Origin: Halichondria panicea | Taxonomy: Eukaryota; Porifera; Demospongiae; Suberitida; Halichondriidae | Direction of reading: 5' to 3' | Length of the DNA stretch: 64,000 nt | Assembly: GCF_963675165.1 (NCBI RefSeq) | Contig: NC_087391.1 | Coordinates: 4,204,646-4,268,645, forward strand | Shown here: piece by piece, positions 12,823 to 52,690 of the stretch | Layout of the letters: each line of letters begins with the position of its first letter | Position numbering within the stretch: position 1 is the first letter of the stretch | Position numbers and translations under genes: made by a program | Notes under the pieces: model-generated | Seen by the model: the letters and a program-made list of their open reading frames with translations, nothing else | Database searches by the model: none | What the model was told of the DNA's origin: nothing

Positions 12823-15800
12823 ATGCCCCGAAAATTCAGAATTGCGGTTCACCGCAAGAATGAATTTAGGAAGTTGAGAGCAAAGAAACTCTCATTGCCT
12901 ATCGATATCAGTGAATTGAAAGTTAGCATCCCGAGAAAGATATTTGCGGATGCTCCCTTATCAACAATTGCCACCCTCAGGCAGAGGCTAAAGATTGCCA
13001 TTGTGCTTCCTGAAGGTACGTAACTTAATTATGTGAACGGTTTTTCATTTAGTTACATGTACACTCTATACTTGAATAGGATGGTTGAATGTATCGGACT
13101 CAGAGGATATCCATATTTCCAAGCATGCTCAGTTGGCCGTCAGCATAGTGATACACAGTGATCTTTCTTGGCATGCTCTTGCCAATGGTTGCAAAGTACC
13201 TAGCAACAATCCTGAATTATCAATGAAGCATCAAGTAATTGCGTCTGTGACTGATGTACAAGACATTATCGACTTCTTGGACTCGTGCACTGTTTGTGTT
13301 GGGAATGACGACGCCAAGTATGCTGCCTTAGTAACTGACAGAAATGGGACATTTGTGGATGTTTCAGGTACGTATACATGTAGTGTACTGAGTGCATGTG
13401 CTCTTGCCAAGAATGAAATCTGCTATTACAGTTAATTAATTTTGTGTATACAGGGAAAAATCGTGTGGCATTTTACGATGATAAGCTCAGCCACGGAACA
13501 ATCCGATGTGATGGATGTCAGATTCTTGTGCCTGTGGAATCAAACCAGTGCAGTGTATGCCATGCCTACAGACAAACACTCAATCGAATGTTCCTTCGTT
13601 TTGAAGATTCCACTAGAGACACGTGTACCGAGTTAAACAGGGTTAATCCTCAGAGTCATACTAACTATCGATACTTGTCATCACTTGAAAAGGACAAACG
13701 AATGAAAGTTCTACATCAACAGAGCAGAGTGGCACAACAACAGATAAATCGCCTTAAAAAGAAACTCAAAAATGTAATTGAACAGAGAAGCAACTTCGTT
13801 GAAGAAGAGCTCCATAATGATCTGTCACAGATCATAAAGGATAATGACGATTCTGTTAAGAAAACCTTCCCCCTGGAAGATTCGTTTCAACGAGTGTTTT
13901 GGGAAAGCCAAAAGCGAGCTTCCTCTCTCAAAAATGCCAAATCGATGAAGTGGGATCCCTTAATGATACGTTGGTGTCTTTATCTTAGACATCTGTCGAG
14001 TAGTGCATACCAAATGCTGCGAGAGTCTGGTGTTATTTGCCTTCCCTCGCAGAGGACATTGCGTGATTATACCTATCACATCCAAAGCTCCATTGGCTTC
14101 TCCGAAGAAGTTGACAAGTACTTGATGGATCTCGCTAAAATCAGCTTGTGTCCGGAGAGGGAGAAGTATGTGGTTCTTTTAATGGATGAAATGCACATAA
14201 AAGAAGACTTGGTGTATGACAAACATTCAGGTATTTACACAAATGCATGCACTAGGTGTGAAGGCATTACCTTTTTATCTCTATAATTGTAGGTGCTATC
14301 ATTGGCTTCACCAATATTGGCGATATCAATTCCCACTTGTTGGCTTTTGAAAGATCTCTAAACAACGATATGGACCAAAGCACCCCACTGGCACATTCTA
14401 TGCTTGTACTACTTGTGAGGGGACTCTTTAGCAAGTTACAGTTTCCTTATGTTCAATTTCCTTGTACATCATTGACTGGTGACCAGATGTTCGAGCCATT
14501 TTGGGAGGCGGTTGGTCGGTTGGAATTGTGTGGATTTAAGGTACTTGCACTCACTTGTGATGGCCTAGCAGCAAATCGCCGTCTCTTTAAGTTGCATAAG
14601 CCTGGTTCGAAGTCTTTGGTCAACAAAGTTGGTAACCCGTATGCCAGTGACAACAGGTCTCTGTTTTTCTTTTCTGACCCACCCCACCTTATTAAGACTG
14701 TCAGAAACGGCTGGGCTAGCCCTAAGAGAAAATTGTGGGTGAGTGCTTGCGTTTATAGATTTACTGTCTAAGACTCTTGTTGTGCATAGCTACACTTACA
14801 ATATTCTAATTGTAGAACATGTATGTACTATACATATTTCCACAGTGCAAAGGGAAAGATATTTTATGGTCTCAACTGAAGCTACTGTATATGAAGAATC
14901 GATCTCAAGAGACCCCTGGCCTAGCATTGATACCGAAGCTTAAGTATGAGCATGTTGAGTTATCCAGCTTCTCCAAGATGCGAGTAGATCTGGCAGCTCA
15001 AGTAAGTGAATTAATGGTGCTGTTACAGATGTACAAGCACTCTATGTCAAAATTCCGTGTGTGTGTGTGTGTGTATACTTAAAATTCCCACATTCGTTTA
15101 TGTCTTATATTTATGCATGCAGGTTCTCAGTAACTCCGTTGCTAAAGCACTACAACTGACACAGGGAGATGAAGTTGCTGAGACCATAACGTTTGTTGAC
15201 AAGTTCAATAAGTTGTTCGACACATTGAATGTCAGCAGTATTTCTGTCGGGAAGCTAAAGCGAAACCCATTCAAAGACCCTTACAGATCAGCATCAGACT
15301 TTAGGCTGAAGGTAAGATATACTGTGGGATTGTGGAGTGTAACTGTGAGTAAATTCGTAATTGTATACATAATTATGCATGTACAAATATTATACAGTGG
15401 TTGGAAGAGGAATTCATCCCATACTTGGATGCTTGGGAGAAAAGCGTGGAGGCTAGGGAAGGCTTCACAAAAACCCAAAAAAAATTGATGATGCTCAGCC
15501 CTGAGACTAGTAAAGGCCTGAGGATTACTGGTAAGCATATACTATTATTGCCCACACTATACTTTTATAGCAATACCTGCAGTGAGGTCATTTGTGGAAA
15601 TGGTTAAGTATCTATTCACGATACCTGGAGTCACACTGTTCCTCAGCAACAGGTTGTGCCAGGACCCCGTTGAGAATTTTTTTGGTCAGCAAAGACAGAG
15701 GGGTAAATCGAACGAAAACCCAAATGTTAGCGAATTTGCAAAGAACACACAGGCTCTTCGGGTGATCAACAGCACATGTGCAACAATTAGAGGCAACTGT

Positions 15801-23210: not shown

Positions 23211-26009
23211 ATGTATGCAGAATACAATGCTATTGTGTTAGTAATATGGACTAGTGACTCCAGAAATGAAGATACTCCAAATTATCCTAGCCTACAGAGA
23301 GAGCCTATAATATGTCAACACTACAGTACCACATTTTCAATTTTTAGGAAAGACCAGAAACTTTCCAACCTAAGTAAAATCCAAGCCAACTCCAACGTTT
23401 TTCAAAACAACCAGACTAGTTCTAGCTCTACTCATCTAAATCGAGACTATAACGGGAATATTCTAATTAATGAGCAAGACACAAGCCAGCAGCCGTTGAC
23501 ACTTGCGATACTTGCATTGAAACCAAGAGAGTTCAAACCAAAGCGATGTGAAATTTCAAAAGTCTCCTTGGAACAGACCGAAAAAGATAGCGTGAATGAC
23601 ACAGTTGCAAAAATTAGACCTACTACTGGCCACTACATTGTCGGATTCTTTGTAACTACATCCTTTCCTCAACCATTCCAAAAAGCTATTAAATGGCCTT
23701 TGTATGAGAAGAAGAGAGAAAACTCGTTACACACTCTGCGACAGCTTTTACCAAACACAATTTCAAGCATTTACGAAACTGCTATAGTTTGTTGTGTCAA
23801 AAAAAATGCTCTATTATCAGAATATTTGTATGAAATTTTTGTCATACTTCACCAGGAAAAAAAAGACCAGTCCTTTTTGTCAAAAACTAGGAAAATTAAT
23901 TGCAAACAAGCAGCATCCAATTTAAAAGAACACCCTGATGATCACAGTTTTCCAGTTGACAAATCTATTGCTCAAACAAGCCATTTGCTAGATGAAGAGA
24001 AATGCATGCTGCTACAAATGTCATGCCTTGTCAAGTCCCTGCCAGGTAGCACTGCCTCTCATCAAATGGACAGTATAGCATCTGTTGTGCCAGAAGGAAT
24101 CACCGAACAATTTGTTTACATTGATGTTGGCAGTCTAACCAATGAAGCGTCTCACCAAGCATTGCTGATCATACAGCATGAAATGGTTGGAAAAGACTGT
24201 AAATTACACACTGAGTTATCCCTTAAAACAGATCTTAGACTTCACCAGACTTTTAGCATACCACCCAGTATCAAAAATGGAATGTTTCATTGCTCATCAT
24301 CAAAATCGCTATCGGAGTTTATTGATGATAACATTTTGTCACGAAATAAACTTAATTTTAACAAGCCATTTTTGAATAATTATGGAGTATGTATTACTGT
24401 TTCACCAGAACTCATTGACACTGAGGATACTAGAAGTGTTCTATCACTCCAAGTTTCGGCTAACGTATCAATTTATCGTCAACCCCTACCACTGAAAATC
24501 CTTAATGAAGCCATGAAGGCTGGATTTGTCTATGTGAATACTACTAATATCTTATTCTTTGGAATGGCTGGTACTGGTAAAACCTCCACTAAGCATCTCC
24601 TTTTGGGACTGCCTCCTCCTCAAGATCGAAATAGCGCTCCATTAGCTAGCACAGCAGGGAGGGTACGTGTTATTAGACAAATTCGAAACACTACAAAGTT
24701 GAAAATAGAAGATAGAATATGGAAACCTGTATCTAGTGATGAGCTACAACGCATTGTTGCTGATGCTATTAAATCTCATGTATCCAGCTCAGATCCCAAC
24801 TCTAAAGTATCTGCTATCCCACAAGAACTCAGCATTGCTCTAAAGGAACTTGAACCTATCAATGAATTGGATACGGAAGTTGACGCAATTTGTCCAGCTA
24901 TAATATCAGTAGCTAGAGCAAAAACAACACAAGAAATCAACACTGTTTCTAATAACACTGCAATACATCTGTTAAAACACTGGTTAATTTTTCCTGGTAA
25001 AGGAATTATTACAATTGAGCTTTTATCCAGGTATTATGTCTATGGACTCTTTGCACCCATTGATCTCATTGAAATATTCAAGCACTTGCTGATAGCCATC
25101 CCATTTGGTTTATTCTCACGAGGGCAAGATAAGCGTTTCTATGTGCCATCACTTCTATCATTGCTCCCACCAACTCAAGTCAATGACAAACGGGTTGATT
25201 TACTTCAGACCGGTTTAATCCCACTCGTTTTACACTTCAAAAGTAACTGGCAGTGCTGTGGAGTGTTTTGCTGTCTCCAAGTGTATCTGATTAAAGAATG
25301 TGATTGGGAAATTGAAATGGATCACCAGCCGAGCAGAAACTTTGTAAAATTTTTTCGTCAAGATAGTTTTATCACACTAATCAGTGACGGATTTTCGTTC
25401 CTTGAAATTCATTCCAGTAGTGATCGAAAAGAAATGTTGTCGTTGATAAATAAAAATATTCACTCTGGTATTCAATCTGCTTACCGAGCCCTAAAATACA
25501 CATATGAGGATCCTGAAGTAGCATTTTTGTGTCCCTATGATTTTCTCGAATTTCAACCACCTTCAACTGAAATAAATTCCCAAGTGCCCCACCACCCAGC
25601 TTGTGTTATGTCTGAGGACAATGTTATGAGGTGTACTCTATGCAAGAAGATTACGTATAGGCTAGAAGACGGTCATAAAGATTGGCTCTCTGCTCGTAAA
25701 CTCGAAGGTGAAACAATGCTTACCTGTAACTGTAAATATTCTATACCATATGTACCTAGGTCTCTCGTAGCACATAAAATGTGTACGCTAGCTAGTCATC
25801 TCGGTAGTGTAACAACTCGGTAATTTGATCTCGCTAACCTGCCATTTCATTGCTCACTAGATTACGTATAGCTTCACATTAGCACTGTATCTATTCCTAC
25901 TGCATACGTACAGATCCTCTAGCCTCAGGACAGCGCACGAGATTATTGTCAGCAGATAAAGAAGGTGAAACTGTGTCAAAGCGTCAGAAGAACGATGTCA
26001 CTGTACAAG
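23211..26009 (+). CDS. Main gene, exons 1-2: N-terminal P-loop/COR-like module
   Basis: An open frame of 870 codons (23211-25823). In the joined model exon 1 ends at 25803 (donor GTAGTG) and exon 2 is 25914-26009 (DPLASGQRTRLLSADKEG, donor GTATGA); the phases then fit the exon at 29958. Residues 1-430 are unrecognised and Ser/Asn-rich at the start. A Walker A motif GMAGTGKTS lies at about residue 451, followed by LLLGLPPPQDRN. The G3-type DxGGQ segment expected of Roc-like G domains is missing. After about residue 580 a COR-like or winged-helix stretch follows (LLKHWLIFPGKG, VYGLFAPIDLIEIFKHLL). A possible zinc site (CTLCKK, then CNCKY) comes near the end. The start ATG is 23211; an acceptor at 23220 (TATGCAG) is an alternative. 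The exon 1 donor is the weakest part of the model: if it is not used, this is a separate 870-residue gene. Confidence 0.7.
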
Positions 26010-26705
26010 GTATGATTTACATTACAGTTAGGCAGCAAATATTGTGTGCTAGAGTTAAAGCTATATCTGGTTTTGTGTGTACCGTGTAGAAACTGGATTA
26101 TTAGCGCTTACTTGACTATAACCGTATCTTTATTTTAAGCGCATGCTCAACTGCAGGCTTTTTTATACAAGCGCTTTTCCAATGATGCGAAGGTTATAGT
26201 GAAATTTTAGAATTGATTCAGCTAATCTATGCGCTAGTTATAGCTTGTACAGTGCATGGCAGCTATATAGCTGGTGATGTCCATCTGGAAGGACTCTCTG
26301 GGCATGTTGTTACCTTGCCTGATAATACTGAGAGAATGTGAGACACAGATGAGGTCCAAGTTCCTAGTCAATATGAATGTTTTTATAATATGAATTTAAA
26401 TGATGTAAATGTAAAATGAACTGTAACATAGTATGCCAGTTAGAGTTGCCTGCTTGCCTTGCTTGCTCACTTTCTAGCCAGCTTGCGAGTCAGCTCTCAT
26501 CACAGAGACATCCGATTGCTGGGTGGGGCTCGAAATGACTTACATTATAGGCGCATTCTTGAATATATAAGCGTATAGAGCTCTACTATTGACCCCAAGA
26601 GCGCTGACATTCTGCGTGGCCCGTAATGCTTCTAGATTGAGGTTGTCCTCTACTTCACAGTAAAACTGGCCTAATGCATGTGCACTGTCAAACTATAGAT
26701 TAAAG

Positions 26706-28131
26706 TAGCCTCCTTCACCGGCCTTCGAAGAAAAAAGAAAGCCTGCTACTGACTGCTTGCACATGCACCAAATTATTGGATATTTTTCCTCGTAAAATTT
26801 CCTATAATACCAGAGAAAATATCCTAAAAGTCATACACAGAGCTATGTAGCTAGCTAGCTAGAGCAGAGCTGTAGGTATGTGTTGTATATACAGCTATTT
26901 TCTTTCAGTATAGCAGTAGTATATAGACTGCTATAGTAGACTTTCACCAAAGTTAGTGTTAGATGGGCGTGGCCTGTCCGTATAGGCTTTTGTCAGCTTT
27001 CACTCTGTTCAGACAATTGTCATCCACACTGTTGAAGGCTGTGAGTCTTTTGTTAACATAGCAAGCTAAGGGTATAGCTATCAGAAAATGCTATTCGATG
27101 GGCTAGAAACCTTCAATCGAAATATCTATCTACTTCCTTCAGTCCACTTCCGTTTGTTGTGTGTCATTGTTTTACTGCATGAGCATATAATATTATCCAT
27201 GGGATAATGCACTTATTGCTTAGCAACCTAAATGCAGGTTAAATCTGCGCATGCGCGACATGCGATTGCTTTGTCAACTAGAAGGATGTGTAGCAAAAAA
27301 ATTGAGTTTCTCCCAGTTGGACGAGTTTATGAGAACAAAAACGGCTAAAAGACAAAGAAATAAAGACTCTAGAACACCAGGAGAGCTTGCAGAAGGCTAC
27401 TAAAGATTTTGTACAAACGTTGACAACCAACAACCCGTTTTGAAAATGGATAGTTCTGAAGGATAAACAGCGTGTGCTTGCTTTCTATCATGCTCCAGTG
27501 TATCAGAAGAGGAAACGTGGACCGCTATAGCAAAAGAAAGTGTGACAACCGTTTTGAAGCAAAAACTACTTACAAGAGCCTGAACAGGCTTAAAATGGTG
27601 GTGCAGTACACTTCTACATGTGCAATATTCCGCTCAAAGCACTCATTCCCAACATGCACTGATGCCAGTGTTAGATGCATTAAATATGACTGGAACATTG
27701 ACAACCTTCTGACCGTCAGCCTCACTGCAAAAGAGCAAAGAAGTTATACAGAGCATCAGAGAGCATCAGAAAACATGAAAAGAGACGGATAAACATTGCA
27801 TTGCATGATCATAAGTGTGTAAATTTATTGTTTTTCTTGTTCTCTCACTGCTGAAAAACGTTTCATTCCAAATAAGAATCACTTCCTAGCGTGCAATAAC
27901 AAGTGTACAATAATACTTCCGGGTGTGCGATATGGAAAAATATCTGCAAACTTGGTGATGAGTCGCTTCCTGTGCAATTTAAATGTAAAACGCTGATGTC
28001 AGCACTTATTAAAAAGCAATAAACGATGATATCTAAAGCCCCCCCCCCTATCCGGGAGGATATTAGTGCATGAGCAAGCAGTCGATACCAGGCCCACTTC
28101 CCTGATGAAGTGGGGCCTGGGATCGAGGCTA
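26706..28131. mobile_element. Mutator-like nonautonomous element, long copy
   Basis: The left end TAGCCTCCTTCACCGGCC, with GACTGCTTGCACATGC just inside, pairs with the right end GCAAGCAGTCGATACCAGGC and ATCGAGGCTA. AGATTAAAG occurs at both sides (26697-26705 and 28134-28142), two bases offset on the right. It shares about 450 bases with 29321-29894 but has about 830 extra internal bases (about 27195-28020). Confidence 0.65.
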
Positions 28132-28784
28132 TAAGATTAAAGCTTCATGTCGAATAAAAGCTAAGAAGCTTGAACTTGCACGTTGGCCATAGATATTACA
28201 TGGCTTTAATTCGAAGCACTATATTACAGCCACCATGCAGGAGTTCATTAAGAGGAATTCCCACGCTCTACGTCTAGGCGTCACTAACACTGTAAACTGT
28301 TAGCCATAAATAAAATAAAATGTGGGCTGGGTGGGTGGGTGTCTGTGTGAAGTCTACCGAGACATCATCAGTGCTTTCATTATAACAAGAGTTCATTAGG
28401 AAGAGTACACAACTCCAATAGACTGTACACAAAAAGCATTCCTCCAGACCTACGTCACAGATGCTGGCTGCGGTGCAACTAGCAGGAAAGGCAATGAATA
28501 AAATTAGTAACTATGTTTTCCTACTGGCAGTTGTAAATGAATAACATTAGTGATAATTATCACAATCATCACTACGTTATTCATTGCAAATTTGAGTTTA
28601 TACAACAACATGTGGTTGCGACGTAAGGTTGCAAAAACGCCCCCTAATGGTTGAGTTGCGTACTCTTCCTTGATTATAATAATTAATGGTGTTTGTTCAT
28701 TGACAAGTGTCTACCTCTTGTGTCATATACTCAGTGGTATATAGATTATTGATTATCAGCAATCACTTGGTAGAGAGTATAATT

Positions 28785-29311
28785 ATATAGCGGGAAATTT
28801 TCGCCAATGCAAATTTTCAAGAGCCCTCAGAAAAAAATGTTTGTGGGTTGTGTTTAATGCCAGAAAACCACACCCACCAAGACCTTTGCATGTGAAATAC
28901 CAAGAGTATATGATATAGAGAGTATCAAACGTAGGCATACTGCATATACATCAGATGTATGCGGAAAGTAACGTGACTTCCTGTATCTGTTTGGAATTTG
29001 CACACTGACCAATCCAAGTGTGGGTGATGTAATCTATCAAGTAGATTACATCACCCACACTTAGATGGGTTGATAGATTACATCACCCACACTTAGATTG
29101 GTCAGTGTGCAAATTCCAAGCTTGTGACATATACAGGAAGTCACGTTACTCTCTGCATACATCTGATACACAGTATGCCTATACGTTCGATACTCTCTCT
29201 CTATCATAATACTCTTGGAAATACCAATGCATAGGAGTTTCTCCCAGTTTTAATATTCGCGTTCACTACTCTGCCCTAAAAAAGTGCACTTCACGAAAAT
29301 TTCCCGCTCTA
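28785..29311. mobile_element. MITE with AGCGGGAAATTTTCG ends, holding a nested palindrome
   Basis: TAGCGGGAAATTTTCGCC at the left and GAAAATTTCCCGCTCT at the right form the ends. The nested palindrome (about 28917-29205) interrupts the sequence otherwise shared with 22600-22720. No coding sequence. Confidence 0.65.
28917..29205. repeat. About 290-bp near-perfect palindrome
   Basis: The arms start GAGAGTATCAAACGTAGGCA and include CATCAGATGTATGC, AGTAACGTGACTTCCTG and TTTGCACACTGACCAATC, mirrored on the right. The centre has GATTACATCACCCACACTTAG twice in the same direction. The right arm carries a short extra unit. Confidence 0.8.
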
Positions 29312-29320
29312 CATGCATGC

Positions 29321-29894
29321 TAGCCTCCTTCACCGGCCTTCATACAAAAGAAGGCCTGCTATCGACTGCTTGCGCATGCGCCAAATTATTGGATATTTTT
29401 TCCCGTAAAATTTCCTATAATACAGAATTCATCAGAGAAAATATCCTAAAAGTCGCTAGCTAGCTAGAGACAGAGCTGCGTAGGTTTGTTGTACAGCTAT
29501 TTTCTTCTGATAGAATCAGTAGCAGTAGTATAGTAGACTTTCACCAAAGTTAATGTTAAATGGGCGTGGTCTGTCCATATAGGCTCTTGTCAGCTTTCAC
29601 TCCGTTCAGACGATTGTCATCCACACTGTTGCAGGCTGTGAGTCTTTTGTTAACATAGCAGGCTAAGGGTAGCTATCAGATAATGCTATCCGATGGGCTA
29701 GAAACCTTCAATCGAACTTTCTATCTACTTCCTTCAATCCACTTTCGTTCGTTGTGATGTCATAGTTTTACTGAGCATTTACGATGTTATCCAAAACCCC
29801 CAGATACCGGGGGAATATTAGCGCATGCGCAAGCAGTCGATACCAGGCCCACTTCCCTAAGTTAAGTGGGAAGTGCGGCCTGGGATCGAGGCTA
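29321..29894. mobile_element. Mutator-like nonautonomous element, short copy
   Basis: Ends TAGCCTCCTTCACCGGCC and GGCCTGGGATCGAGGCTA, with subterminal ATCGACTGCTTGCGCATGCG and its complement. CATGCATGC is duplicated at 29312-29320 and 29895-29903. The element lies just upstream of the acceptor of main-gene exon 3 and may supply intronic sequence. Confidence 0.8.
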
Positions 29895-29957
29895 CATGCA
29901 TGCATGCATGGTGTGTATTTTTTGATACAGTTGAACAATTGAATTCCTTCTGTACAG

Positions 29958-32900
29958 GGGTGGAGGAAGGGCACCTTTATCAAGAAGCCATCAAGAACGA
30001 TCAAACAGTGTCTCTTCGCTACCTCAAGCTCCTTCTTCTTGGTCCTGGCCAAGTTGGAAAGTCAACCTTTTTCCGTAGACTTCTTGGTGAAATGAAATGG
30101 GACATTGACTCAGATCCAAAACCTCATTGTAGCACAGAAATGGCTCGCTTACAGCAAGTATGTATTAAATATACTCCTATTGCTGCCGCTGTTACTATGG
30201 ATTGTTGGCACACTATTGAAGAATTACACAACCAAGTTGCCGTATTAACCTCAATGTTGGTGAACGAACAAGTGCATGTTAAAGAAGTTGGTACTACCAA
30301 GTTAACAGAATCCCAGAGAATAAACAAACCTGAAGCAGAGTCTCACCAACCTCAAGTACAATGCAATAGTCATTCAAGTGCTTTGCCACTAACCAGTACT
30401 CAGGAACGTCTGGGAGCTATAACCTCAACTGACAATCTAAAATTGGATTATAAATATCAACAGGATACATTGTCTCCAAACATAGCAAATGTTCTCGATA
30501 AATATGAAGAGCTAAGACACAATTTGAAGCTAAAACCACAAATTTTGATCGAGACCCTGCTTAATATAGTGGATGTAGGTGGGCAACTAGCATTTTTGGA
30601 TATGTTTCCATCATTAACAATTGGTCCTGCTATGTACTTGGTGTTCATGAAGCTCGTAGACGGATTAGGAACTGAACACCCTGTAACGTTTGTCGATACA
30701 GATCCAATTGTGTGCAAAGAGTACACTTACACATCAAAAGATATCATTTTCACTGCTCTTTCAAGCATTGCATGTTTTGGAAATTCGGATGCTGATGTAG
30801 AAGCAAGTGACAACAAATCAAACAAATTTTTAAGTTCAATAGCGTTATTGTTAGAAACATTTAAAGATGAATACTTGGAAGCAACGAAAGAAGTCCAGTT
30901 AGTGGTTGATCGAAACGAAACAGAACTCAAAACCCGATTAAAGGACACTGGTCTTCATAATATAGAATACTATGACCGAGAAAAAGGTCATATCTTTTTG
31001 AACAAAAATGGAGAGATTGTTACTTATCGAAAATGTCTTGAAGAATTTATACCATTGTTTAAGAAACTGATCATAAATATCTCGATTACTAACAATTCTC
31101 CTTTGCTTATGGGAAACTACAATATAATTACATTACCAGACCTCAGTGTAAGTCATCTAGTAACTGAAACAAGAAGTAAAGAAGAAACAAAGAGCAAAAA
31201 GAAGAAAAGTGGATTTGTACCTCCAAGAAGGCAGATATTTCTATTGTTGAAGCGTCGTCGTAAACGAAAGATAAGAGGCAAACAAAGTGCTTTGAAAGCA
31301 CGGCCATTAAGTGATTCTGAAGATGATAAAAACTTGCCGGATGTAGTTCAAGAAAAAAGCCTTAAGACATTAAAATCAAGAATGCAAATAGTAACAACAT
31401 CCAGGTATACTGATCCCCCAAAGTTGAAAGGTCATGTTTCTGCTAAACTTGCATATTTAGAGTCTGATTCAAACAGTCAAGAAGAAGATATAGGCAACCG
31501 AACTGACATTTTTGCTACTGATCAATGCTCCTCTGTTAAAATGGATCTCGTACACAATTGCCAATATTCATATTCAGAAGAACCAGTTGCACAAACAAGG
31601 CAAGCCCTGTTATCCATGAAAGGGACAGCTATTTTCAGAGTGGGGGCACCTTCAACTGAACTAGAATTTAAGCGTCTGCGAGTCTCAGTCAATGTTCAAG
31701 CATTCTATTTGTTGATCAAGCGTGAGAAATCAGCTATAGTCACATACATTTCTACTGAAAACAAACAAGAACTGTATTGCTTTGAAAATCGAGGATTGGG
31801 TAGGAAAAAGAAACCAGTTTACAGAGTCACATCTGAGGCTGAAACATTGTACGATTTCTCCAAGTCTGCAATAGTTCATGGATCATTTTCAAAACGAAAC
31901 TTAGTGGTTATCAAGGAATTGGAAACACCAAAAAGTAACTTTGTTGGTATTCCATCACATGAGAAACTTAGTCAGTCCAATATTGGATTAGTAGATCATA
32001 TATCTACCTCTGAAACATCATCACAACAACTCTATAGCTCAGAACGTACTGACTCCATGAGACTTCCTACATTGGCTGCTGCAAATAGCTTGAGCACGAG
32101 TTCATCACCTGTAGCAGCAGAATCTCCAGTTAAAAGTAAAGGTGTAAGAGGAAGAGTACAAGTAGATGGTGAACAAAAGGCCTCATTGAATGCTTCTATT
32201 CCACGAGCAAGTACTATAAGGACAAGTGAGAGGACAAGGGAGAGAAACTCTCCTCGCGAAAACGACAGTAGCCTACAGCGAAGTATCCCTACACGGAGAT
32301 CACCTGATTGGATTGCCATAGCAACTAAACTTCTTCATGTTCCTGACTATCAAAAAATGATACAGATTCTAAATGGTGTCACACCAGCTCAAGAAGATGT
32401 TGTGGCTCACAAATTCATCAAGGGAATTGCTTACTTCAAAGTTGGCAAGTTACGACAAGCAATGGATGACCTACACGAATGTGAGAAATTTGCTTTAGAA
32501 TCCATTGAAGACGAAAGACGTGCACACTCTCAAAGGCAATTGGATAGTGGAGTATTTTCAATGCAACCTGGATCACAGGCTTCCCCCCAGGCATCAAGTT
32601 TGCAATATTTGCAACAATCATCGAAAAAAGGAGACGTTGCAGTTTGTAATGTGTACATGGGAGATCTGCACTATACTTCAAGCTCCTATCTTGAGGCATC
32701 GAAATGTTATCAACGAGCGGCCGATTTGTATGACAGAGAATGTGTAGCAAGACTGTTCAGGATGGTTCCCCCCACCATATCAACAATTCATTCTAAATGT
32801 GGCAGCTGCTTACGCAATTTGTCCAAATCAATGGAGGCCATTCAAGAGTACAGAAATGCTATTGAGACAGCCATTAGAGACAAAGACCGTCTTGCTGCTC

Positions 32901-35567
32901 ACACTAGCCTTGGAAACCTCCAACAGACTCTAGGTCAGAACAAAGAAGCACTGGTAGAGTACGAACATGCCCTTGATCTAGCAGAGACACTCAATGAACA
33001 CATGTCGGTTGGTTGGACTCATGGGAATATTGGAAATGCCTTCCTCGGACTGAATGAAAAAGACAAAGCACTATTTCACCTCCAAAAAGCCCTTGATATC
33101 ACTATCAAGTACGAACCAAAACCAGATTCTATAGGAAGGGCATATAATAACCTAGGCACTGCCTACCAGTCAATGGGCGATCTTGACAAAGCTGAAGAAC
33201 ATTATGACCTTGCTTTAAGTCAGGCTATCTACGGCAACGACCCAGCTGGACAATCCAGGGTTTATGGCAATATCGGAAACATATATATTGTCAGGAAACG
33301 TTTTGAAAAAGCTATCCCTCACTACACCGAAGTGCTTCGCCTCTCCAAAGATGAGGCTACGATTAGCACCGCTCACCACAACAGAGGATGTGCACTATAT
33401 GAGTGGGCAGAGAGTAAAATGCTTGCTCTAGAACAATCTTTACAGAAAACTTCCTCAAGTAAGGAGCCAACATTTCGATTTCACGGATCCCAAACTACAC
33501 TTCCCCAAAAGCATAGTCCTCGTATTGTGATCGATAGCATTGCCAAACTCTTCAGAGATGGAATGTCAGATTTGCAAAAGGTTGCTGAAACTCACGAAGC
33601 AAAACTTGACCACATTAAAGGATCAGCCAAAGGACTTTCACTTTCAGTCTCCCTCACAGAGTCAAATTCTCGCACTTTCCATCGCTTACAGGACTGCATG
33701 GTTGCTATAGGCAACTGGAGGGAGGCTCTTCTCATTGCTGAGCAAAGCAGAGCTCGTACGCTCGGAGAAATAATGCTTGCACGAAAAGAAAGTCAACTTG
33801 AGAAGGCTCTTACCTCACCACTAAACCTGGAGCATGTGTACTCCATTGTGAGCTCACAAAAGTCTCCTGTTCTCTACCTCACCCACACTGGAGCTAGTCT
33901 GTTTGGCTGGGTGCTTGTCCCAGCTGAAGACAGTGACAGCATTTCGATCGAGATGTTTGAAATTCCCATATCAGATGACCAGTTCAATGGAAAGAGCTTC
34001 GATTACCACATCAGATACGGCCTTACAGAGGTCTTAGTGGAGCAGAGCTATGAGATGTATCGCAGCATTGACTATGACAAAGAAACTACTGCTCCTGTTG
34101 CTCAACTCTTCAAGGTCATTGGTAAACCCTTTCAAATGACTCTTGACCGACTTCTTCCAGGAAACAAGAAAGCAAAAATGCAAAAGATTGTTTTGATTAC
34201 TGATACTTACACCAGTCTATTGCCATTTACTTGCATGTACGATCCAGACAGTGAAACCTTTCTTGGTGATCATTATTATTTTGAAACCATGCAATCTTTG
34301 TTGACAATGGGTATAATGAATCAGCTCCCAGAACCAATGGTTGAATTACCAGCAGATCCACAAAGTATGTGCATTGTGGGAAATCCCATCATTCCCAAAT
34401 TTTACCTTAATGGTGAAGTATGGTCCCTGGGGAAACTCCCTTATGCAAGACGAGAGGCTCAGTGGGTGGGGCATATCCTGAACACTCCACCTATTCTGGA
34501 CGAGCAAGCGACCAAAAGTGCTGTCGTAATGCGATTCATGAGAGCCAAAGTGATACACATAGCAACCCACGGCAGCTCGGTCTCGGGTTTCTTAGCATTT
34601 GCCTCACTCACCTCTACCAGACAAGGGGAAGGGGTTGACTCCAGTGGAGTACTGCTGCACCCGGAGGAGGTGGAGAAGCTCTCCATCAGTCCAGCTCTTG
34701 TCGTTCTCTCCAGCTGTGACTCCTCAAGAGGTACCGTGAAGGCGGACGGTGTGCAAGGGATGGCAAGAGCATTTTTGTTGGCAGGTATGTATACTATGAT
34801 GTACTTATGGTATAAGTATAATCGTGTACTCCTGGTATAATACGTAAACCATAATTATATGTATGCTAGAGTAGGTATATGTAATTGAGTACATAAAGAG
34901 GAGTATCCAATTCCCACGCACATTCCATTCTACATCTTGGACTAAATCCCGTCACTAACACTTGTAGTTGAGTAAACTGTTAGCCATGAATAAAATTAAA
35001 TGTGGGCTGATAGTACAAACCACATGTGTGTGTGTGCTGATATCATTTTTAACCACGACACCTACGCACCACTTAAGATGAGGTCTGATAGTGACGTGGT
35101 ATATACTCGTACCCTAACCTGGTTTACACTACAACTGCTACAGTTGGATACTCCTCTTCATGTTTTCCTGTTATATGTAATTGAGTACAATAAAGGCTGC
35201 TACTAAATTAAGTTGTTTTTCTGCAGGTGCACAAGCTGTACTCACCGCTCTGTGGAGGGTGCCTGACGAATCTGCAGCTGTGTTCATGCGTTTCTTTTAC
35301 CGGTTCCTTGAAAATGGGTTTGAGAGCTCCCTCTCACTTCAGAAGGCAATCCTCAGTTTGAGATGCTTCTCCAAGTACTCACAGTACATACATTGGTCCG
35401 GTTACCAGCTAACAGGGAGATCCATTCGTTTGGACATGAAGCCGTCTCCAGTGACGACTATATTAGAGAGCACCCTGAGGCCAAGCTCTCCGTTTCCCCG
35501 GCTCATGCTAGTCAAGAAGCTGGAGAGTGTGTTGGTGGATAATCCAAGACTACCCACTGATATTCAG
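29958..35567 (+). CDS. Main gene, exons 3-4: G domain, TPR repeats and CHAT protease
   Basis: Exon 3 is 29958-34784 (acceptor TGTACAG, donor GTATGT) and exon 4 is 35227-35567 (acceptor TTTCTGCAG); phases join. Domains in order, using the 3063-residue model: a Ras/Roc-like G domain with GPGQVGKST (residue about 925) and DVGGQ (about 1102); a long polar linker with a basic cluster (KRRRKRKIRGK); an unrecognised domain; about eight TPRs (about 1708-2050; for example LGNLQQTLGQNKEALVEYEHAL); and a CHAT caspase-clan peptidase domain. The catalytic His is in VIHIATHGSS (codon 34568-34570) and the Cys in VVLSSCDSSRG (codon 34715-34717), as expected of CHAT. The order resembles TPR-CHAT proteins such as TTC28-like proteins and the bacterial TPR-CHAT protease. 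Proteolytic signalling or cell-death control is inference. Confidence 0.85.
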
Positions 35568-35791
35568 GTTCGTAATTGCCAATCACTCTCAGGCTAATTA
35601 CTTCAGTGGTTTATGAGCCAGATCTCACCCTAGTATACTGAACAAACGTGCATGTGTGGTGTATACTAAGTATTAATTGTGGCGGATAAAACAACTGTTT
35701 GACAGCAATGTTACAACTTTTTAGTCACTGTTGCTCAATACGAAATAATTATACTAAAAATTAATTATGAATATTGGTTGAATGTAACCAG

Positions 35792-37748
35792 ATTCTTCAT
35801 GGATCTCCTGGAGTGAAGCCATCTGAAATTGCCATTGACTTCATTCACTCTTGCCACGCTAAATTTCCAGCTGGCATTTTCTGGATCAGCTGTCGCACAC
35901 CAGACATCATTGATGCCAGTCTGAAAAGCATTGAGAAAGTGAGTGAATCGACAATCACTGTGTTTACCACACCCAATTTCAAGCTTTAAAGCCATTGTGT
36001 GAAGTAATGGTATAAAAAGAAAGAAGTGGGGGTGGCTTAATTGACAAGTTGTGACAGACAAAGACAAGCATCGCTAATATGATGCGGCTGAATAGGATAA
36101 AATGCATAATCGTAATAGGATAACAGAGACAGATTGCTTATATAAACTTAAGTTCGTATACAGTTCGCGATACATCTGTTAAGGACATACGTTGATAAGT
36201 ACAGGGAATTTGAAGATCGAAGTGACTTATGAAGTGTTCGTGAAGTGACGTGTTTTAATATATAATTATTTTGATAGATGAAGTTGGTAGGTCTAGGTTA
36301 ATATGTTTTGTCAAGCGCAGAGATTCCAAAGCCTTACTACGTGACTGAAATATAAGTGACAGGTGGCATTGTAGGCAGGATTAAATGTTTAGGGGGGAGG
36401 GCTTTACGCGCGGTAGCCGCCGCAAATTTGCCCGCTTTGTTGATTTCACCGTTATATCATAGTATTACAGTCTATAGATACGTAGAGTCTACTTTCTACT
36501 TAATGGTTACAGGTTGCATGCACGTATATATAGTTGGGTTAATAAATGTATTGCATGCAGACAATTGACAAGCCTCTGAACAAGCTGCGACTTAGTGACA
36601 CACAGCAAGCATTGGTGGTCCTGGACAATGCAATCGAACTGCCAAGCTCGGGAAAACTGATCAGCTTCCTAAAGCACACGAACGTTCACATCATTATTCT
36701 GTCAAAGTCAGCAGATCCCCTCGACTCTTTCGTAAAAGAAGTTGATAAAGCCTTGATCAGAGGTTGCAGTATACACGAAGTGAAAACACTCTCAACAATT
36801 GACTCCACCCAGCGAATCGTGTACGAAATCTCCAAGCAGTACTATCTAAAAGCAAATAACAATGATCAAGCAATCTTTGAGAAATTGGCTGAGTTTACAT
36901 CTGGCTCACCCCTAATTGTTGACATAGCCGCACAAGTTCTGCTCAAGTTTGTGCAAGAGAATTCTGACGAACCTTCTGAAGGTCTAAACCAATTTGCTGA
37001 TTCCATTCAGCTTTCAAAATCTCGGAAAGTTGTCCATAAATCTCCTTCATTGGCAAGTTCTCTTCAAGGAGTCGAGGATACATGTTTTCAAGTGAGGGAA
37101 ATTTCAGACGCACTCACACGCCTTGTTCCAAACGTCGCCAGTGTGTCGCCGAATCACACAGATGTGTGGGAGTCAGAGAGTGAGTACGACTCTTGGGACT
37201 CGATCGGAGCCTTGATCCAACGTTGCGTATCCACTCCAGGAGAAATGTTGCTGCTTCAAGCCCTGTCCATTTTTGGTTGTATACCAATTCCAATTCCTTT
37301 GGTCACTACCATGTCCTCCCTGATAGCTCAGTCATCAGGTCACTCACACTTGGCTGGCATCTTGCACGAGCGACTAATGGAGGCAAAGTTGATATTAAGG
37401 TATCCCCAGCCAGTTGTTCTTCATTCTACTTACACTAAAGGTGACAAAGCCAGTGAAGAGCCACTCTTCTTGTACCTTCCTCAGCACTTGGCTAGTCAGC
37501 TGTGGCTATGTAATGACATCGATCAAGTAATGGCTGTAACAGTTGCATACAAAGCATTGCAAAAAGTTATCGACGAAAATTCACCAAAAAGTCCAGAGCT
37601 CTTACATTTTTATCTCGGACTCATCCCACCACTTGAGGAAAAAACTGCACTACTAGCTATTGAAAAGAAGCATTGCTATGAGGCAGTGTACGAGTTATAC
37701 CTGCAGCTGTCACATCAACTCAGCTCCAATAATCACACCCACACCTGA
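35792..37748 (+). CDS. Main gene, exons 5-6: C-terminal NB-ARC-like module with lost Walker A
   Basis: Exon 5 is 35792-35938 and exon 6 is 36561-37748 (TGA stop), both phase 0 with exon 4. Exon 5 encodes ILHGSPGVKPSEIAIDF; in NB-ARC proteins this position normally reads G-x-x-G-x-G-K-S/T, so Gly and the catalytic Lys have become Lys-Pro. Exon 6 keeps a Walker B-like ALVVLDN, IIILSKS and GSPLIVDIA, then a winged-helix-like part (MLLLQALSIFGCIPIPIPLV). Placed after CHAT, it gives an unusual order in which the NTPase is C-terminal to the protease. The paralogue at 204-2133 shows the same substitution, so the loss predates the duplication. The gene boundary with exon 4 is supported by phase and by retention of both introns in the duplicate. 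Confidence 0.75.
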
Positions 37749-43270: not shown

Positions 43271-44873
43271 ATGGAATCCAAAAGTGATGAAGGAAGATTT
43301 ACCTTTGAAGTTATTCATGCTTTCATAAGCAGGAACGAGTACCCTTCATCCTTTAGTAAAGAAGACAAGCGTTCCCTGAGGCGGAGAGTTAAATGCTTTG
43401 ATGCAGTGGATGTTGGATCTACCCGTAAGAGACAGTTGCCATAAATTACCTAGATATTGTACATAATTGTAGTTATCGCTATATATTTGTGTCTACATAC
43501 TGTTACATGCAGTATTACATTTTCAAAAAAGGTGATGAGAAGAGGCTTGTTGTGGAAGACAAGGAGCAGAGGAAAAGGATTATAGGAGCAATCCATGATC
43601 CAAGTCATATGGGAGTCAACAGAACATTGGACATGATCACAGCCAAGTATTATTGGCCTGGTCAAACGAATGAAGTCAAAGAATATGTAAGTGAAGCCGG
43701 ACTTTACTATATATTATTGCTTTTAGTGTATTTGCATGATCTACTTATTTCTTATAGGTGAAAACATGTACCAAGTGCCAGTGTACCAATCCTAGACTAC
43801 TAAAACCAGCATCGACTCTCCACCCAATACCAGTGACACCAAAGGTTTGGCATACAGTTGGGATGGATTTGATTGGCCCTCTGACAGAGACACCCAGGGG
43901 CAACAAGTATGTCATAACGCTCATGCACCGACTATTTCAGCAAGTGGGCGGAAGCAGCCCCAATTGCACTACCAGACAAGACAGCACATGGAGTAGCTAA
44001 ATTCCTTTACTCTGTAAGTGCACTATAGCAATAATTATTATGCACATCATTTACAGCAAATCAATCTCTCTTAATAGGTTATGTGCAGAATGGGCTGTGC
44101 AGAAGTCATCATCACTGACCAGGGTCGGGAATTCGTCAACTCACTCTCAGCCCAGTTGTACCAGAAAACCAACACCCAGCATAGAATCACTAGCGCTTAC
44201 CACCCTCAGACAAATGGATTAACTGAGCGGTTTAACCAGACTCTTTCTAGGTGTTTGGCTAAAACTGTGAATGACAACCAAGATAACTGGGACGAGAAGA
44301 TCAACACGATTCTCATGGGGTATAGGGCATCGCGTCAGGCATCGATTAAGCATTCTCCTTACTTCATGCTCTTCCAAGCTGAGATGCGTTTGCCGATTGA
44401 TAGTGAGCTACTGCCCGGTCAGCCTGAAGAAAGAACCCCAGAAGAAGTTATTGAGCATCTTTTGAAGAGCCGTGAAGAAGTGTTCACAACAGCTGAAGCC
44501 AACATCAAGTCAGCACAAGGCAAACAAAAAGAAACGTATGACAGAAAACACCAGCAAGTCAGCACACTTAGCGTAGGTATGAAAGTTTTGCTGGAGAATA
44601 CTGCTCAAAAGCAGAGGAAGGGAGGAAAACTGGACTCAAGATGGCTAGGTCCATATTTCATCAACCGAGATTTAGGTAAGTTATTATTATTTAGTGATAA
44701 TAGTTATATCTATACAGCCTGTATGTTATACAGCTAAAATGAATTCACATGCACTATAATTATATATAATTATATATATATTATATGTATATATAGGTAA
44801 GGGCTTATATGAGCTAAAAAACCTTTCTGGTCAAATACTCAAGAAGAAGGCGAATGTCTGTCGGCTGAAGTTT
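43271..44873 (+). pseudogene. Ginger1 integrase-like transposase, two frameshifts
   Basis: It starts at MESKSDEGRFTFEVIHAF (43271). An exon from about 43511 gives YYIFKKGDEKRLVVEDKEQR and the HDPSHMGVNRTLD part of the zinc finger; the next exon (from about 43759) gives VKTCTKCQC. The core has VGMDLIGPL (first Asp), then a one-base slip near 43925, after which TDYFSKWAEAAPI follows in another frame. The next exon (from about 44079) carries IITDQGREF (second Asp) and TSAYHPQTNGLTERFNQTL (Glu). The GPY/F motif is WLGPYFINRDLG at 44642-44677, continued after an intron by KGLYELKNLSG. A second slip at the T-rich AAGTTTTTT (44870) separates this from the Pro-rich part. All catalytic residues remain. 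Confidence 0.8.
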
Positions 44874-46106: not shown

Positions 46107-46530
46107 ACTGCAAATAGACTGCAAATAGATAGCTAGTTTTTCTGTTGTTGTACTTGTTCAATTTTTGAGATGCATCATAATAACCGCTGAGATACTTTTA
46201 ATAGGGGGGCCTAAACTTTTAAGAGGGGGCCTAAAATTTTAAAATTCTAGGTCCGGGGGGGGGGGCCCAATCTCATGGGGGGCCCAAAATTTTATGACAC
46301 CGGCCATCTCCTCAGCCTAACGTACCTCCCTAAAAATCAATCTAGCCACGCCCCTAGTAGAGTCAATTGGAAAGAGGACCTGTTTGGAGTGATCTGATGG
46401 CTCATAATAATAAAGTAAGTCAGTATGATAGTAGATCTAATGCCTGAGGCCTTTGTTCTGAGCATGCCCATAGCTAGCTGGCTAGTATTCATTTCTAAGT
46501 TACCAACCAAAAGTTCTGCTCTTTGCTATC

Positions 46531-47795
46531 ATGGATGCTGTTGCTGTATCTGTTGCTATTTTATTGAGGGAAAGAAGCACTATGCTTAGAAAACAAGCTG
46601 TAAGTACAAACAAAAAGAAGTCAGCAAACAGAAGAAATCGGTTTTATGAGAGACAGGCTCGAGAGCGTTTACTGTTTGCTGTCACAATGTCATTAGCTAC
46701 AGTCAGCTTTGCGTCCACACCAAGAGCTATCTCGACAAGAGAAAGAAGTTCTCAGTGGTGGGAGCGGGTCGTAATGGAAATATTTACCCATCAAGACTGG
46801 ATTCAAAATTTCAGAATGAGCCGAGATACGTTTCTATTTGTCTGCCAAGAGTTAAAGTCCATTGAGAAAAGCAATACCTCTATGAGGAAAGCCATCCCAC
46901 TCCAAAAAAGGGTCTCTATCGCTCTGTGGTTTCTCTCAACAAACTCGGATTTTAGGACAATTAGCCATTAATTTTGTTTGGTGTCTCAAAAGCATCAGTT
47001 TGCCTAATAACGAAAGACGTATGTGTGTGCATTCATTCGCCATTGTGGACCATCTTCTTCCCAGGTATATTCGTATGCCTTGTGGTGATGCATTGAAGCA
47101 AGTGGTGGCTGGATTCAAGGACAAACTGGGTTTTCCACAGTGTGTTGGAGCAATTGACGGTACACATATCCCGATCATCTCACCACAAGAGTGCCCAGCC
47201 GACTACTACAACAGGAAAGGTTGGCATTCCATCATACTCCAAGGATTGGTTGATCACAATGGTCTTTTCATGGACATTTATGTCGGCTGGCCAGGACGAG
47301 TCCACGACGCAAGAGTCTTCTCTAATTCTTCTCTATTTAAAAAAGGACAAGAAGGATCACTTTTACCCAATTCGACAGAGACAATTGGGCAGCATGAAAT
47401 TCCTCTCGTTATTTTAGGTGACCCAGCGTACCCTCTTTTGAAGTGGCTCATGAAAGCTTACCCCGACACAGGAAGTCTCACCCCTCAACAGAAGACGTTT
47501 AACTACCGCCTTAGTAGAGCTTGAGTAGTTGTTGAGCATGCCTATGGTCGTCTAAAGGCTCGATGGAGATGTTTAATGAAGCGCAACGATACCAGCATTG
47601 GTGATATACCTACTCTTGTTTCAGCTTGTTGTGTTTTGCACAATATCTGTGAAGTTTGTGGGGAATTAATCATTTAATGACGAGTGGATTGAGACTGACT
47701 CATCCTTTAGCGAGATTAGACAGTCGGCATCTGACTCAGTAGATATTAGTGGTAACCAAATAAGGAGTAATTAACACAATATTTTAGTACATGAT
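46531..47795 (+). pseudogene. Harbinger DDE transposase, copy A, broken
   Basis: The frame from 46531 is open to 46971, where an insertion (CATTAATTTTG) in the SHLFGVSKASV region shifts it. It resumes at about 47030 with GAIDGTHIPIISPQE (first Asp) and VGWPGRVHDARVFSN (second Asp). A TGA at 47522 replaces the Arg of [14 protein letters not shown], which carries the Glu. A further frameshift lies near 47665. Copy B has an intact frame throughout. Confidence 0.8.
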
Positions 47796-47879
47796 AATTA
47801 TGTGAACTTATGTTATCATACACATCATTATTTTATTGTTATATGACTGTATGATTAATGTTTGATGTTTAAAAGTTAG

Positions 47880-48772
47880 TAGTCCTACGGTGAGTCAGGG
47901 TTAAATGGTTGCGATGATGGTGGATAATACTGTGATGGTCCTGGTTGCCGTATCATTTGTCCAAGCATTTGAATCATGTTGAGTTGGTGCGTCTGTTCCT
48001 CCTTTCTTCTTGTTTCTGCTAACTTTCTCTCTCTCTCTCCCATCTTTCCTCCTCTCTTTTCTCAAATCTTTCCTCTGCTTCTCTCTGGTAGCCCAGAAAT
48101 GTCTCCAGCTGCTTCTCCATAGCCTTTTCGGTTTTGTTTTTCCTGCTTTTCTTTGTTGGCGGGGGAGTACCTGTTTTTGGGTGTGTATAGATAATTATTA
48201 TTGAAAATTAATTTTGTATGTTTTCTTTTAACTCACAATCATCTATTTCCCATTTCCAGAGGTACTGGGCTCTCCCTCAGTATTGGCCACATCATCCGCA
48301 CTCTCCACTGGAGACTGTGGCTGGATCTGACTGCCATCTGTGTTAAAAAGAAAGTTAAGTATACAATTATAACATTATATTGTACCGTCTGTATCCTCCA
48401 CAACCTCATCCACCCCTTTCCTTCACCTCAGAGCTGGTGTCAACGAGGAAAGATGGAGCGGAGGCTGGTCGGTGCCCCAGAATCCTATCCAGCTCGTCAT
48501 AAAACTTGCATGTTTTCCTACGTTCCCCTGTCTTATTGTTACCGTCCTTTACTTTTTTGTAGTTTGTTTTTACGTTCTTAATTTTTACCCTACATTGAAT
48601 CCAGTCTCTTTCGTATCCTTTTTTCTTCATTTCTTTTGATATTTTTTCGTAAATCAGTTTATTTCTTACAGCTCCATCAAGTTGCTGCTGCAAGTCAGTA
48701 GCTCCCCAGATAGCTATTACTGCTTTTATCTCAATGTCACTCCAATATGTGCCTCTGTTCATTGTTCTTCTC
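47880..48772 (-). pseudogene. Harbinger Myb/SANT-like protein, copy A, C-terminal part decayed
   Basis: The first exon (48406-48762) is open: MNRGTYWSDIEIKAVIAIWG starts a trihelix/Myb-SANT-like domain with WIQCRVKIKNVKTNYKKVK. Later exons are recognisable near 48230-48340 and 47895-48180 (Glu/Arg-rich coiled coil, complement of a pyrimidine-rich plus strand) but contain frame breaks. In Harbingers this protein binds DNA and brings the transposase to the ends. Confidence 0.65.
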
Positions 48773-48780
48773 CTTATACC

Positions 48781-49432: not shown

Positions 49433-50184
49433 GCACCCGCGGTGCTTTCATTATTGTATCAATCCTTACTTGTTATTCTGGGCACTGTAGTTACAGAGCA
49501 ACAAAATCCCAAACCATAGCCGGAAACCGTTGGTCTTTTCTCTCCCTACCCGATTACCCACTATAACAATTTTACTGTTCTATTAATCACCACAAAACCA
49601 CCCTTAATATTTACATACACAATGGTATCAGCATATTGTCTTAGAAATGTTCCAATCATAAGTATTTACATTTATAAGTACACGACAGCATAATTATTAT
49701 GATATTCATAGCTGACTACCTTATAAAGATAACTGTGGTTTACTATTGACTGTGTTGCCTTAATTTGCTCTGGACAACTATTGTGCAACTATTGTGCAAA
49801 CCACTGTATGAACACAACCGAGTTATAGCTATGAATTCATTATCCATATAGATCTATCTATTATGTACGTTATGAAGAGTCTGTCCATAATTAATAAATT
49901 GGGGAGGATTCCAGGAAAACGCCCTGTTTACACGCAGCATCTAATGCGCATTGTAAAGCGCATTACTACAAACGAGGTCTAGTCTAAACGCACTAATGCG
50001 CTATCAAAACCGGCTTACGTAAACCGCCTACCTGATGTGGTTTGAAGCCGGATCAATGCGGTTTAGACAGTAGTGTAAACAGCTGCAAGCGCATTAAAGG
50101 AATGCAAAGAATTCATTTGTGGCATAAGAAGTCCTATAAGAAGAGAAGACAATGAACAGAGGCACATACTGAAGTGACAATGAA

Positions 50185-51013
50185 ATGAAGGCACTAATAG
50201 CTATCTGGGGAGCTAGTGACTTGCAGCAGCAACTGGACGGAGCTGTAAGAAATAAAGTAATTTACGAAAAAATAGCACAAGAAATGAAGAAAAAGGAATA
50301 TGAAAGAGACTGGACGCAATGTAGGATAAAAATTAAAAACTTAAAAACAAACTACAAAAAAGTAAAGGATAGCAATAACAAGACTGGGGAAAGGAGGAAA
50401 ACATGTAAGTTTTATGACGAGCTGGATAGGATTCTGGGGCACCGACCAGCCTCCGCTCCATCTTTCCTCGTTGACACAAGCTCTGAGATGGAGGAAAGGG
50501 TGGATGAGATTGTGGAGGATACAGACGGTACAATAATTATAATGATACACTTGATACTTATCTTAAATTTATTAACACAGATGGCAGTCAAATTCAGCCA
50601 CAGTTTCCAGTGGAGAGTGCCGGTGCTGTGGCCAATACTGAAGGAGAGGCCAGTACCTCTGAAAAGGAGAAAACAGATGAATGTAAGTTCATAGAAAACA
50701 TACAAGTGCACACACTTAAAATCTACACACACAGGTGCTCCCCCTAAAACAAAAAACCCCAGAAAAAACAAGACAGAAGGCTATGGAGAGGCAGACGGAG
50801 ACATTCTTAAGCTACCAGAGAGAAGCAGAGGAAAGATTTGAAAAAAGAGAGGAAGAAAGATGGGATAAAGAGAGAAAATTAGAAGACGTGAGAAGAAAGG
50901 AGGAACAGGCACACCAACTACAGATGATGCAAATGCTTGAACAGATGATACAGCAGCCAAGACAGTACTTCCCGCCACCATCACAATCATTTAACCAAGA
51001 CTCGAATTACTAA
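50185..51013 (+). CDS. Harbinger Myb/SANT-like DNA-binding protein, copy B
   Basis: Exon 1 starts further up at 50152 in copy A's equivalent (MNRGTY), but in this copy the next Trp codon is TGA, so translation could begin only at 50185 (MKALIAIWGASDLQQQL). The trihelix-like domain has DWTQCRIKIKNLKTNYKKVK. A donor lies near 50528. A second exon (about 50583-50680) reads SQIQPQFPVESAGAVANTEG in its likely frame. A third (50735-51013) is a Glu/Arg-rich coiled coil ending PPSQSFNQDSNY. The join of exons 2 and 3 needs a frame change at the A-rich run near 50765. Probably damaged. Confidence 0.6.
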
Positions 51014-51089
51014 CTTCAATAATCAAACGTTATAATTATAATCATAGTATTACAGTCCTTATTACATATAATTATACGTCACATTAATA

Positions 51090-52346: not shown

Positions 52347-52690
52347 AGCAAAGCATATAGGCTTATGAGCAGGATTTGGTAACTTAGCAATGAATAGGCC
52401 TTACTATATAGGCATGCTCAGAACACAGGAGGCCTCAGGCATTAGATCTACTATCATACTGACTTACTTTATTATTGTGAGCCATTAGATCACTCCAAAC
52501 TGTTACATAAGGTCCTCTTTCCAAGATTCTTACTTCTTTTCCAATTGAAGCACTTTGCAAGAGGTTACTAATCCGGTTCAGACTGTTTACACAGCATAAA
52601 ACCACAACTGGCTTCGTGGCTGTGTAAACGCACTAATGCGCATTATCTAATCTGGATTACAATGCGCATTACTTTGCGTGTAAACAGGGC

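Follow-up and report, generated by a model that had tools for sequence, protein, structure and literature searches.

Passages on fungal NLRs describe the CHAT domain as an N-terminal effector and present these receptors as contracted pathways in which the caspase lies inside the receptor; they also describe a TPR-bearing CHAT protease that activates fungal gasdermin (PMC10197012, PMC12881547). Animal TPR-CHAT proteins are known as well, with TTC28 named as the putative human homologue and a role in cytokinesis cited for it in the relevant passages of PMC12314368, and a passage on bacteria proposes that inactive STAND domains are nucleic-acid receptors (PMC8195603). Here we analyse a locus of the sponge Halichondria panicea on contig C15 (positions 4204646-4268645 of a 131-Mb genome; this whole stretch of 64,000 nucleotides is the window, and positions are in window numbering unless given with a contig), where six forward-strand exons would encode two G-domain modules, TPRs, CHAT and an NB-ARC-like C-terminus. 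We refer to it as copy B, with A, C, D and E denoting related loci. We put the probability that copy B is one six-exon gene encoding a single-chain sensor-protease of about 3031 residues at roughly 0.5.

As far as the cited passages go, each described system shares part of this plan. Metazoan TPR-CHAT proteins (TTC28/TPRBK, with expansions in corals; PMC12314368) have in common with it one CHAT domain behind a TPR array, and tandem duplication, whereas copy B also has a G domain in front and, as a further presumed difference, a pseudo-NB-ARC behind. Fungal CHAT NLRs (PMC10197012, PMC12881547) likewise have CHAT and, after it, a STAND module on a single chain; in contrast, the sponge gene has TPRs before CHAT, and its STAND module is without a canonical Walker A. 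The bacterial iSTAND and iSTAND2 domains (PMC8195603), likened here by their description, place an inactive STAND NTPase on a conflict-type effector but have different domain partners. Within Halichondria, the database proteins P0130, P0134 and P0141 combine a G-domain module with a linker exon as in exons 1 and 2 of copy B; unlike copy B, they close with Death-domain-like parts and lack both TPR and CHAT.

An initial annotation had called the arrangement undescribed. Its domain order was right, and searches of open-licence literature listed no title or abstract describing this order in sponges, but the elements themselves are known from the fungal and animal proteins above. In the parts available, a study of H. 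panicea immunity deals with NACHT-based NLRs and has no whole-word CHAT (PMC8242945), the passages found in a Dysidea NLR paper mention no CHAT domain (PMC12909245), and PMC7159879 has no whole-word CHAT or NB-ARC. The protease half of copy B belongs to a wider family for which we found no description in the open-licence literature.

Exons 3-6 and the protease half

Exons 3-6 form the solid part of the gene model. Exon 3 (29958-34784, with a phase-1 acceptor) is placed by its acceptor and by identity with copy A, and exons 4 (35227-35567), 5 (35792-35938) and 6 (36561-37748) by the other copies and by P0003, a spliced database protein model. P0003 matches copy C without mismatch over four segments with three introns (63191-68005, 68413-68757, 69099-69248 and 69833-71017) and there uses junctions 3/4, 4/5 and 5/6 as the initial annotation had drawn them. 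The splice sites of exons 4-6 are the same in the tandem copies A and C, with no indels and 96-99% identity. Exons 3, 4, 5 and 6 of copy A, the last of which was located by identity at 946-2133 (forward strand), are 98.2, 98.5, 98.0 and 96.5% identical to those of copy B; exons 4-6 of copy C are about 98-99% identical, and its exon 3 is alike from about residue 426 of a 1659-residue frame. The start of copy C (63191-64000, forward strand, from the P0003 mapping) has an N-terminus unlike those of A and B, and comparison of the sequences establishes that N-terminal modules differ between copies. Six CHAT loci were found in the genome, four of them in a stretch of about 131 kb on C15, the other two on C5 and C8. 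Copy D is a divergent partial copy of exons 3-6 on the reverse strand.

Read as sequence, exons 3-6 encode a G domain, a linker, TPRs, CHAT and a pseudo-NB-ARC, in that order. The G domain of exon 3 (29966-30979, delimited by hhalign) retains its P-loop (GPGQVGKST, 30041-30067) and G3 (DVGGQ, 30572-30586). It aligns with the G domains of the exon-1 family at Prob 97.1 and E 6.4e-11 (score 82.0 over 298 columns; the best of 40 shuffles reached 21.4), its alignment to NB-ARC scores 45.6 and is confined to 22 P-loop columns, and Pfam Roc stays under its cut-off at E 0.1. On these profile alignments, it is a relative of the exon-1-family G domains, and it has at least 103 matches in the genome, with 100 of 172 candidates scored.

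The TPRs (32807-33400; residues 983-1180 of the open reading frame from 29861) and the caspase-like CHAT protease domain (PF12770, 34094-35420, interrupted by the intron 34785-35226), both proposed in the initial annotation, pass their Pfam cut-offs, CHAT with 91 bits against 24, and stand in the order TPR array, then CHAT. The CHAT domain has both a His motif (IHIATHG, 34553-34573) and a Cys motif (LVVLSSCDS, 34697-34723), patterns found in 115 and 120, respectively, of 122 TPR-CHAT relatives; we take the His and Cys in them to be the catalytic residues. Three relatives, P0023 (Roc) and P0027 and P0032 (AIG1), combine a GTPase, ANK, TPR and CHAT in single proteins. Searched alone against the PDB, CHAT gave no match; the whole of P0003 matched 8rot at E 0.0011. 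Among the plasmid matches to P0003 listed (the best 30 of 160 records), only the TPR-CHAT part is covered.

The C-terminal module, encoded by exons 5 and 6, is by profile comparison a real, remote relative of NB-ARC. Against a seven-sequence NB-ARC alignment, hhalign gave Prob 96.4, E 1.2e-9 and a score of 78.5 over 256 columns; 60 column shuffles scored at most 22.6, the reversed alignment 16.8, and TPR, CHAT, COR-like, G and NACHT alignments 15.4-24.7. The NCBIfam family NF040586 matched three of four members (E 2.7e-6), at 26 bits, far under its own cut-off of 300. Chance resemblance is ruled out by the controlled alignment together with the NCBIfam matches. With one NB-ARC sequence in place of the alignment, hhalign did not reach significance (P 0.028). 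The Pfam NB-ARC profile was not reached and exon 6 contains no Pfam family, which speaks against the NB-ARC reading; the best Pfam signal was nSTAND_NTPase5 (E 0.041, in one of four members), and against the PDB the module matched one chain only (E 0.7). None of 82 pattern matches for it in the genome_contigs database was confirmed.

The canonical ATP-binding loop of this NB-ARC part is lost, judging from the alignment: the Walker A pattern GxxxxGK[ST] is absent, and in its place stands a conserved G-x-x-G-x-[KN]-P-S-E (GSPGVKPSE in exon 5 of copy B, GVHGLKPSE in copy D). The Walker B aspartate is present in copy B and in 9 of 11 tails of relatives. At a position similar to that of MHD, a YxP was seen by eye; the profile alignment stops before this place. 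The NB-ARC-like module claimed by the initial annotation is thus upheld as a remote homologue, with a degenerate P-loop.

Copy B is not unique in joining TPR-CHAT to such a tail. A CHAT-end motif occurs in 107 of the 122 TPR-CHAT relatives, and 92 of these 107 share the linker that in copy B closes exon 4, ending PTD-x-Q or alike (PTDIQ in copy B); the classification leaves out 15 of the 107 with the CHAT-end motif and the 15 of 122 without it. Of the 92 linker proteins, 81 end no more than 110 residues later, as would fit an intron where copy B has its exon 4/5 border; the other 11 continue with [GA]xPGx[KN]PSE. These 11 database proteins were chosen by the replacement motif itself, the four aligned sequences by homology only. 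In twelve proteins, more than 400 residues follow the last CHAT-end motif: these 11 and P0011, which continues into another TPR-CHAT. That most of the other relatives come from sponges is an assumption.

Exons 1-2 and their join to exon 3

The six exons as first proposed all have GT/AG borders, and their 9192 bases form one frame without internal stop. The end of exon 1, placed at 25803 for a protein of 3063 residues, had to be revised. A donor at 25707 (GAAG|GTGAAAC) has GTGAG at the equivalent place in 6 of the 11 paralogues that have a linker exon, the other five having a different exon end there; the database protein P0130 runs across the equivalent of 25707 as KLE|DPLASGQ; and a 1-base indel between copies A and B, just behind 25707, breaks the frame of copy A towards 25803, so copy A cannot use that donor. 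The donor at 25803, unusable in copy A and disfavoured by the paralogues, was rejected. Exon 1 most likely spans 23211-25707, and copy B then encodes 3031 residues, and copy A 3214 under the same six-exon model, both unbroken.

Exon 1 combines an N-terminal segment with a G-domain module, here truncated, that belongs to a large gene family of this genome, and exon 2 (25914-26009) is a linker exon with phase 1 at both ends. The family has at least 46 matches in the genome (44 of 523 candidates scored), and 11 of 19 other family loci that were cut out have the linker exon. P0130, P0134 and P0141 are close paralogues of exons 1-2 in which the linker exon is matched; Pfam finds ANK in P0130 and P0141, a Death domain in P0141 and Ras in P0128. 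In P0128 (contig C5), a whole Ras-like GTPase lies ahead of the exon-1-family module (Pfam Ras, E 1.6e-59).

The initial annotation had counted two P-loop modules. Both P-loops are present, that of exon 1 being GMAGTGKTS (24561-24587), and exon 3 keeps its G3, but the exon-1 G domain of copy B has lost G3 and G4 with an in-frame stretch of about 800 bases that copy A retains (gap at about 24953). Another part of exon 1, 23631-24482, is without counterpart in copy A and was found as a single copy in the genome. Pfam recognises no family in exon 1 of copy B. Copy A retains the complete G domain, and its exon 1 (C15:4178163-4181258) carries a NACHT fragment ahead of this domain (Pfam E 2.8e-10, profile positions 3-51 of 167); Roc there stays under its cut-off (E 0.014). 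NLRC3-like Halichondria database proteins match 13% of the copy A exon-1 query, with identity up to 91%. Pfam scans of copy B and of copy A exon 1 gave no COR, and NACHT and LRR were found nowhere in copy B by Pfam, the NACHT fragment being all that copy A has of the two.

On the sequences compared, we somewhat favour the splicing of exons 1-2 to exon 3 in one transcript. The phases agree, at 1 for both the exon-2 donor and the exon-3 acceptor. Between exons 2 and 3 of copy B, no Death-domain exon was found. Copy A has no in-frame ATG before its exon-3 P-loop, and its exon 3 therefore needs an upstream coding exon. At locus E (C15, reverse strand), exon 1 (4411102-4413258, 89%), a linker exon and the exon-3 G domain (4398466-4399611, 87%) have the order and strand seen in copy B, and the exon-3 acceptor is identical in A, B and E. 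Shortly before this acceptor, one additional base and a stop in frame are present in locus E. An unspliced ATG start of exon 3 is ruled out as the general case by the lack of such an ATG in copy A and by the stop in E; copy B taken by itself does have an ATG, at about 29900, upstream of the acceptor. In locus E, a weak hit had suggested that a copy of exon 3 directly followed exon 2; it was dismissed, the true copy lying about 11 kb away.

Despite this agreement, several observations weigh against a single gene, and it is possible that there are two adjacent ones, exons 1-2 being a truncated G-domain gene (read past 26009 or into a further 3' exon) and exons 3-6 a gene of about 2170 residues with its own small first exon. 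Fused relatives are absent: the exon-1 module occurs in none of the 122 TPR-CHAT relatives and TPR or CHAT in none of 120 exon-1 relatives, both sets being bounded by the length windows of the searches. In 8 of the 19 family loci, the paralogues of exons 1-2 run into a Death-domain exon within the 1.5-kb flank; between exons 2 and 3 of copy A there is a Death-domain-like frame (E 0.0004), inside a 12-kb insertion. An open frame of about 25 codons continues past the equivalent of 26009 in copy A, and AATAAA/ATTAAA motifs occur in the exon 2-3 interval. For copy C, no exon-1 homologue was found in the 163-kb region examined, and its model begins inside exon 3. Locus E has a Met between acceptor and P-loop, so its translation could start within exon 3. 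Neither copy A nor copy B was represented, at 2170 or 3031 residues, among the database proteins returned by a search with the C-terminal protein; this search is of limited sensitivity, having missed 6 of 11 known motif tails. Finally, an alternative first exon of 17 codons (27490-27541) is conserved; it is, however, the single such candidate, and its donor is weak. This, the upstream coding exon required by copy A, and the exon order and acceptor shared with locus E speak against two genes.

Selection, proposed function and alternatives

Between copies A and B, the ratio of nonsynonymous to synonymous substitution rates (dN/dS) is 0.07 for TPR-CHAT and 0.18 for exon 6, and the coding sequences show TPR-CHAT to be under strong purifying selection. 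The ratio is 0.63 for exon 1 (514 aligned codons) and 1.24 for the exon-3 G domain, where dS is as low as 0.015; in exon 2, all three changes are replacements and none is silent. Divergence is patchy (dS 0.19 for exon 1, 0.015 for the G domain of exon 3 and 0.089 for TPR-CHAT), and this range suggests conversion or recombination between the two copies.

By analogy with fungal CHAT NLRs and bacterial inactive STAND domains, we infer a sensor-protease role for copy B. The signal, be it a ligand or the GTP state of the G domain at the N-terminus, would be relayed by the TPR scaffold and release the CHAT protease, which would then cleave a substrate in an immune or cell-death response; the C-terminal NB-ARC-like fold would not switch with ATP but would mediate docking, oligomerisation or ligand binding. 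Exons 1-2 would be the front of a G-domain/Death-domain gene that came to precede exon 3, to which they would be joined by splicing across a phase-1 intron. The clustering of the copies, the exchange of N-terminal modules and the Death, ANK and NACHT relatives make an immune or cell-death role plausible. Gasdermin (PF04598) had no match in the genome, nor in any control genome. More tentatively, the copies may belong to a sponge family of single-chain 'contracted inflammasomes', in which exchangeable N-terminal sensor and GTPase modules feed into TPR-CHAT and an NB-ARC has become a control module that works without nucleotide and bears a new conserved loop, A and B having gained a second G-domain module by exon shuffling.

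The TPR-CHAT plan shared with TTC28, with the cytokinesis role cited for that protein (PMC12314368), would also suit a scaffold of cytoskeletal or cytokinetic function, and the natural TPRs closest to P0003 among PDB chains are those of GPSM2/Pins. We nevertheless consider such a role rather doubtful in view of the tandem copies, the N-terminal exchange and the G-domain kin with Death or NACHT parts. It is still less likely that exon 1 of copy B is a decaying fragment without a working module, so that exons 3-6 alone matter: the loss of G3 and G4, the segment unrelated to copy A and the dN/dS of exon 1 would fit such decay, but the frame of the whole exon has stayed open in both B and A despite a dS of 0.19. 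Were the single-gene, sensor-protease reading true, an early-branching animal would possess a receptor with a built-in protease, as described in fungi, an NB-ARC module would have persisted without its canonical ATP site, and N-terminal exons would have been exchanged between two large families of the H. panicea genome. This reading is open to test through the tandem copies and the conserved loop that stands in for Walker A.

Mobile elements in and around the window

The insertion between exons 2 and 3 of copy A lies ahead of the window (C15, about 4186555-4198446) and contains long reverse-strand frames that by eye resemble reverse transcriptase, as well as repeats that by eye are ANK-like. 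Comparison of A and B shows nine bases common to both of its flanks (28748-28756 in copy B), like a target-site duplication. Within the window, transposase or integrase frames lie at 5239-6114 (reverse strand), 6824-7705, 13417-14768, 44078-44734 and 51093-52400 (reverse strand), of the families DDE_3, rve, TNP-like RNaseH, rve_3 (under its own cut-off) and DDE_Tnp_4. An inverted pair of about 2.4 kb (46382-48778 and 50135-52500, 83.5% identity) carries the DDE_Tnp_4 frame in one arm.

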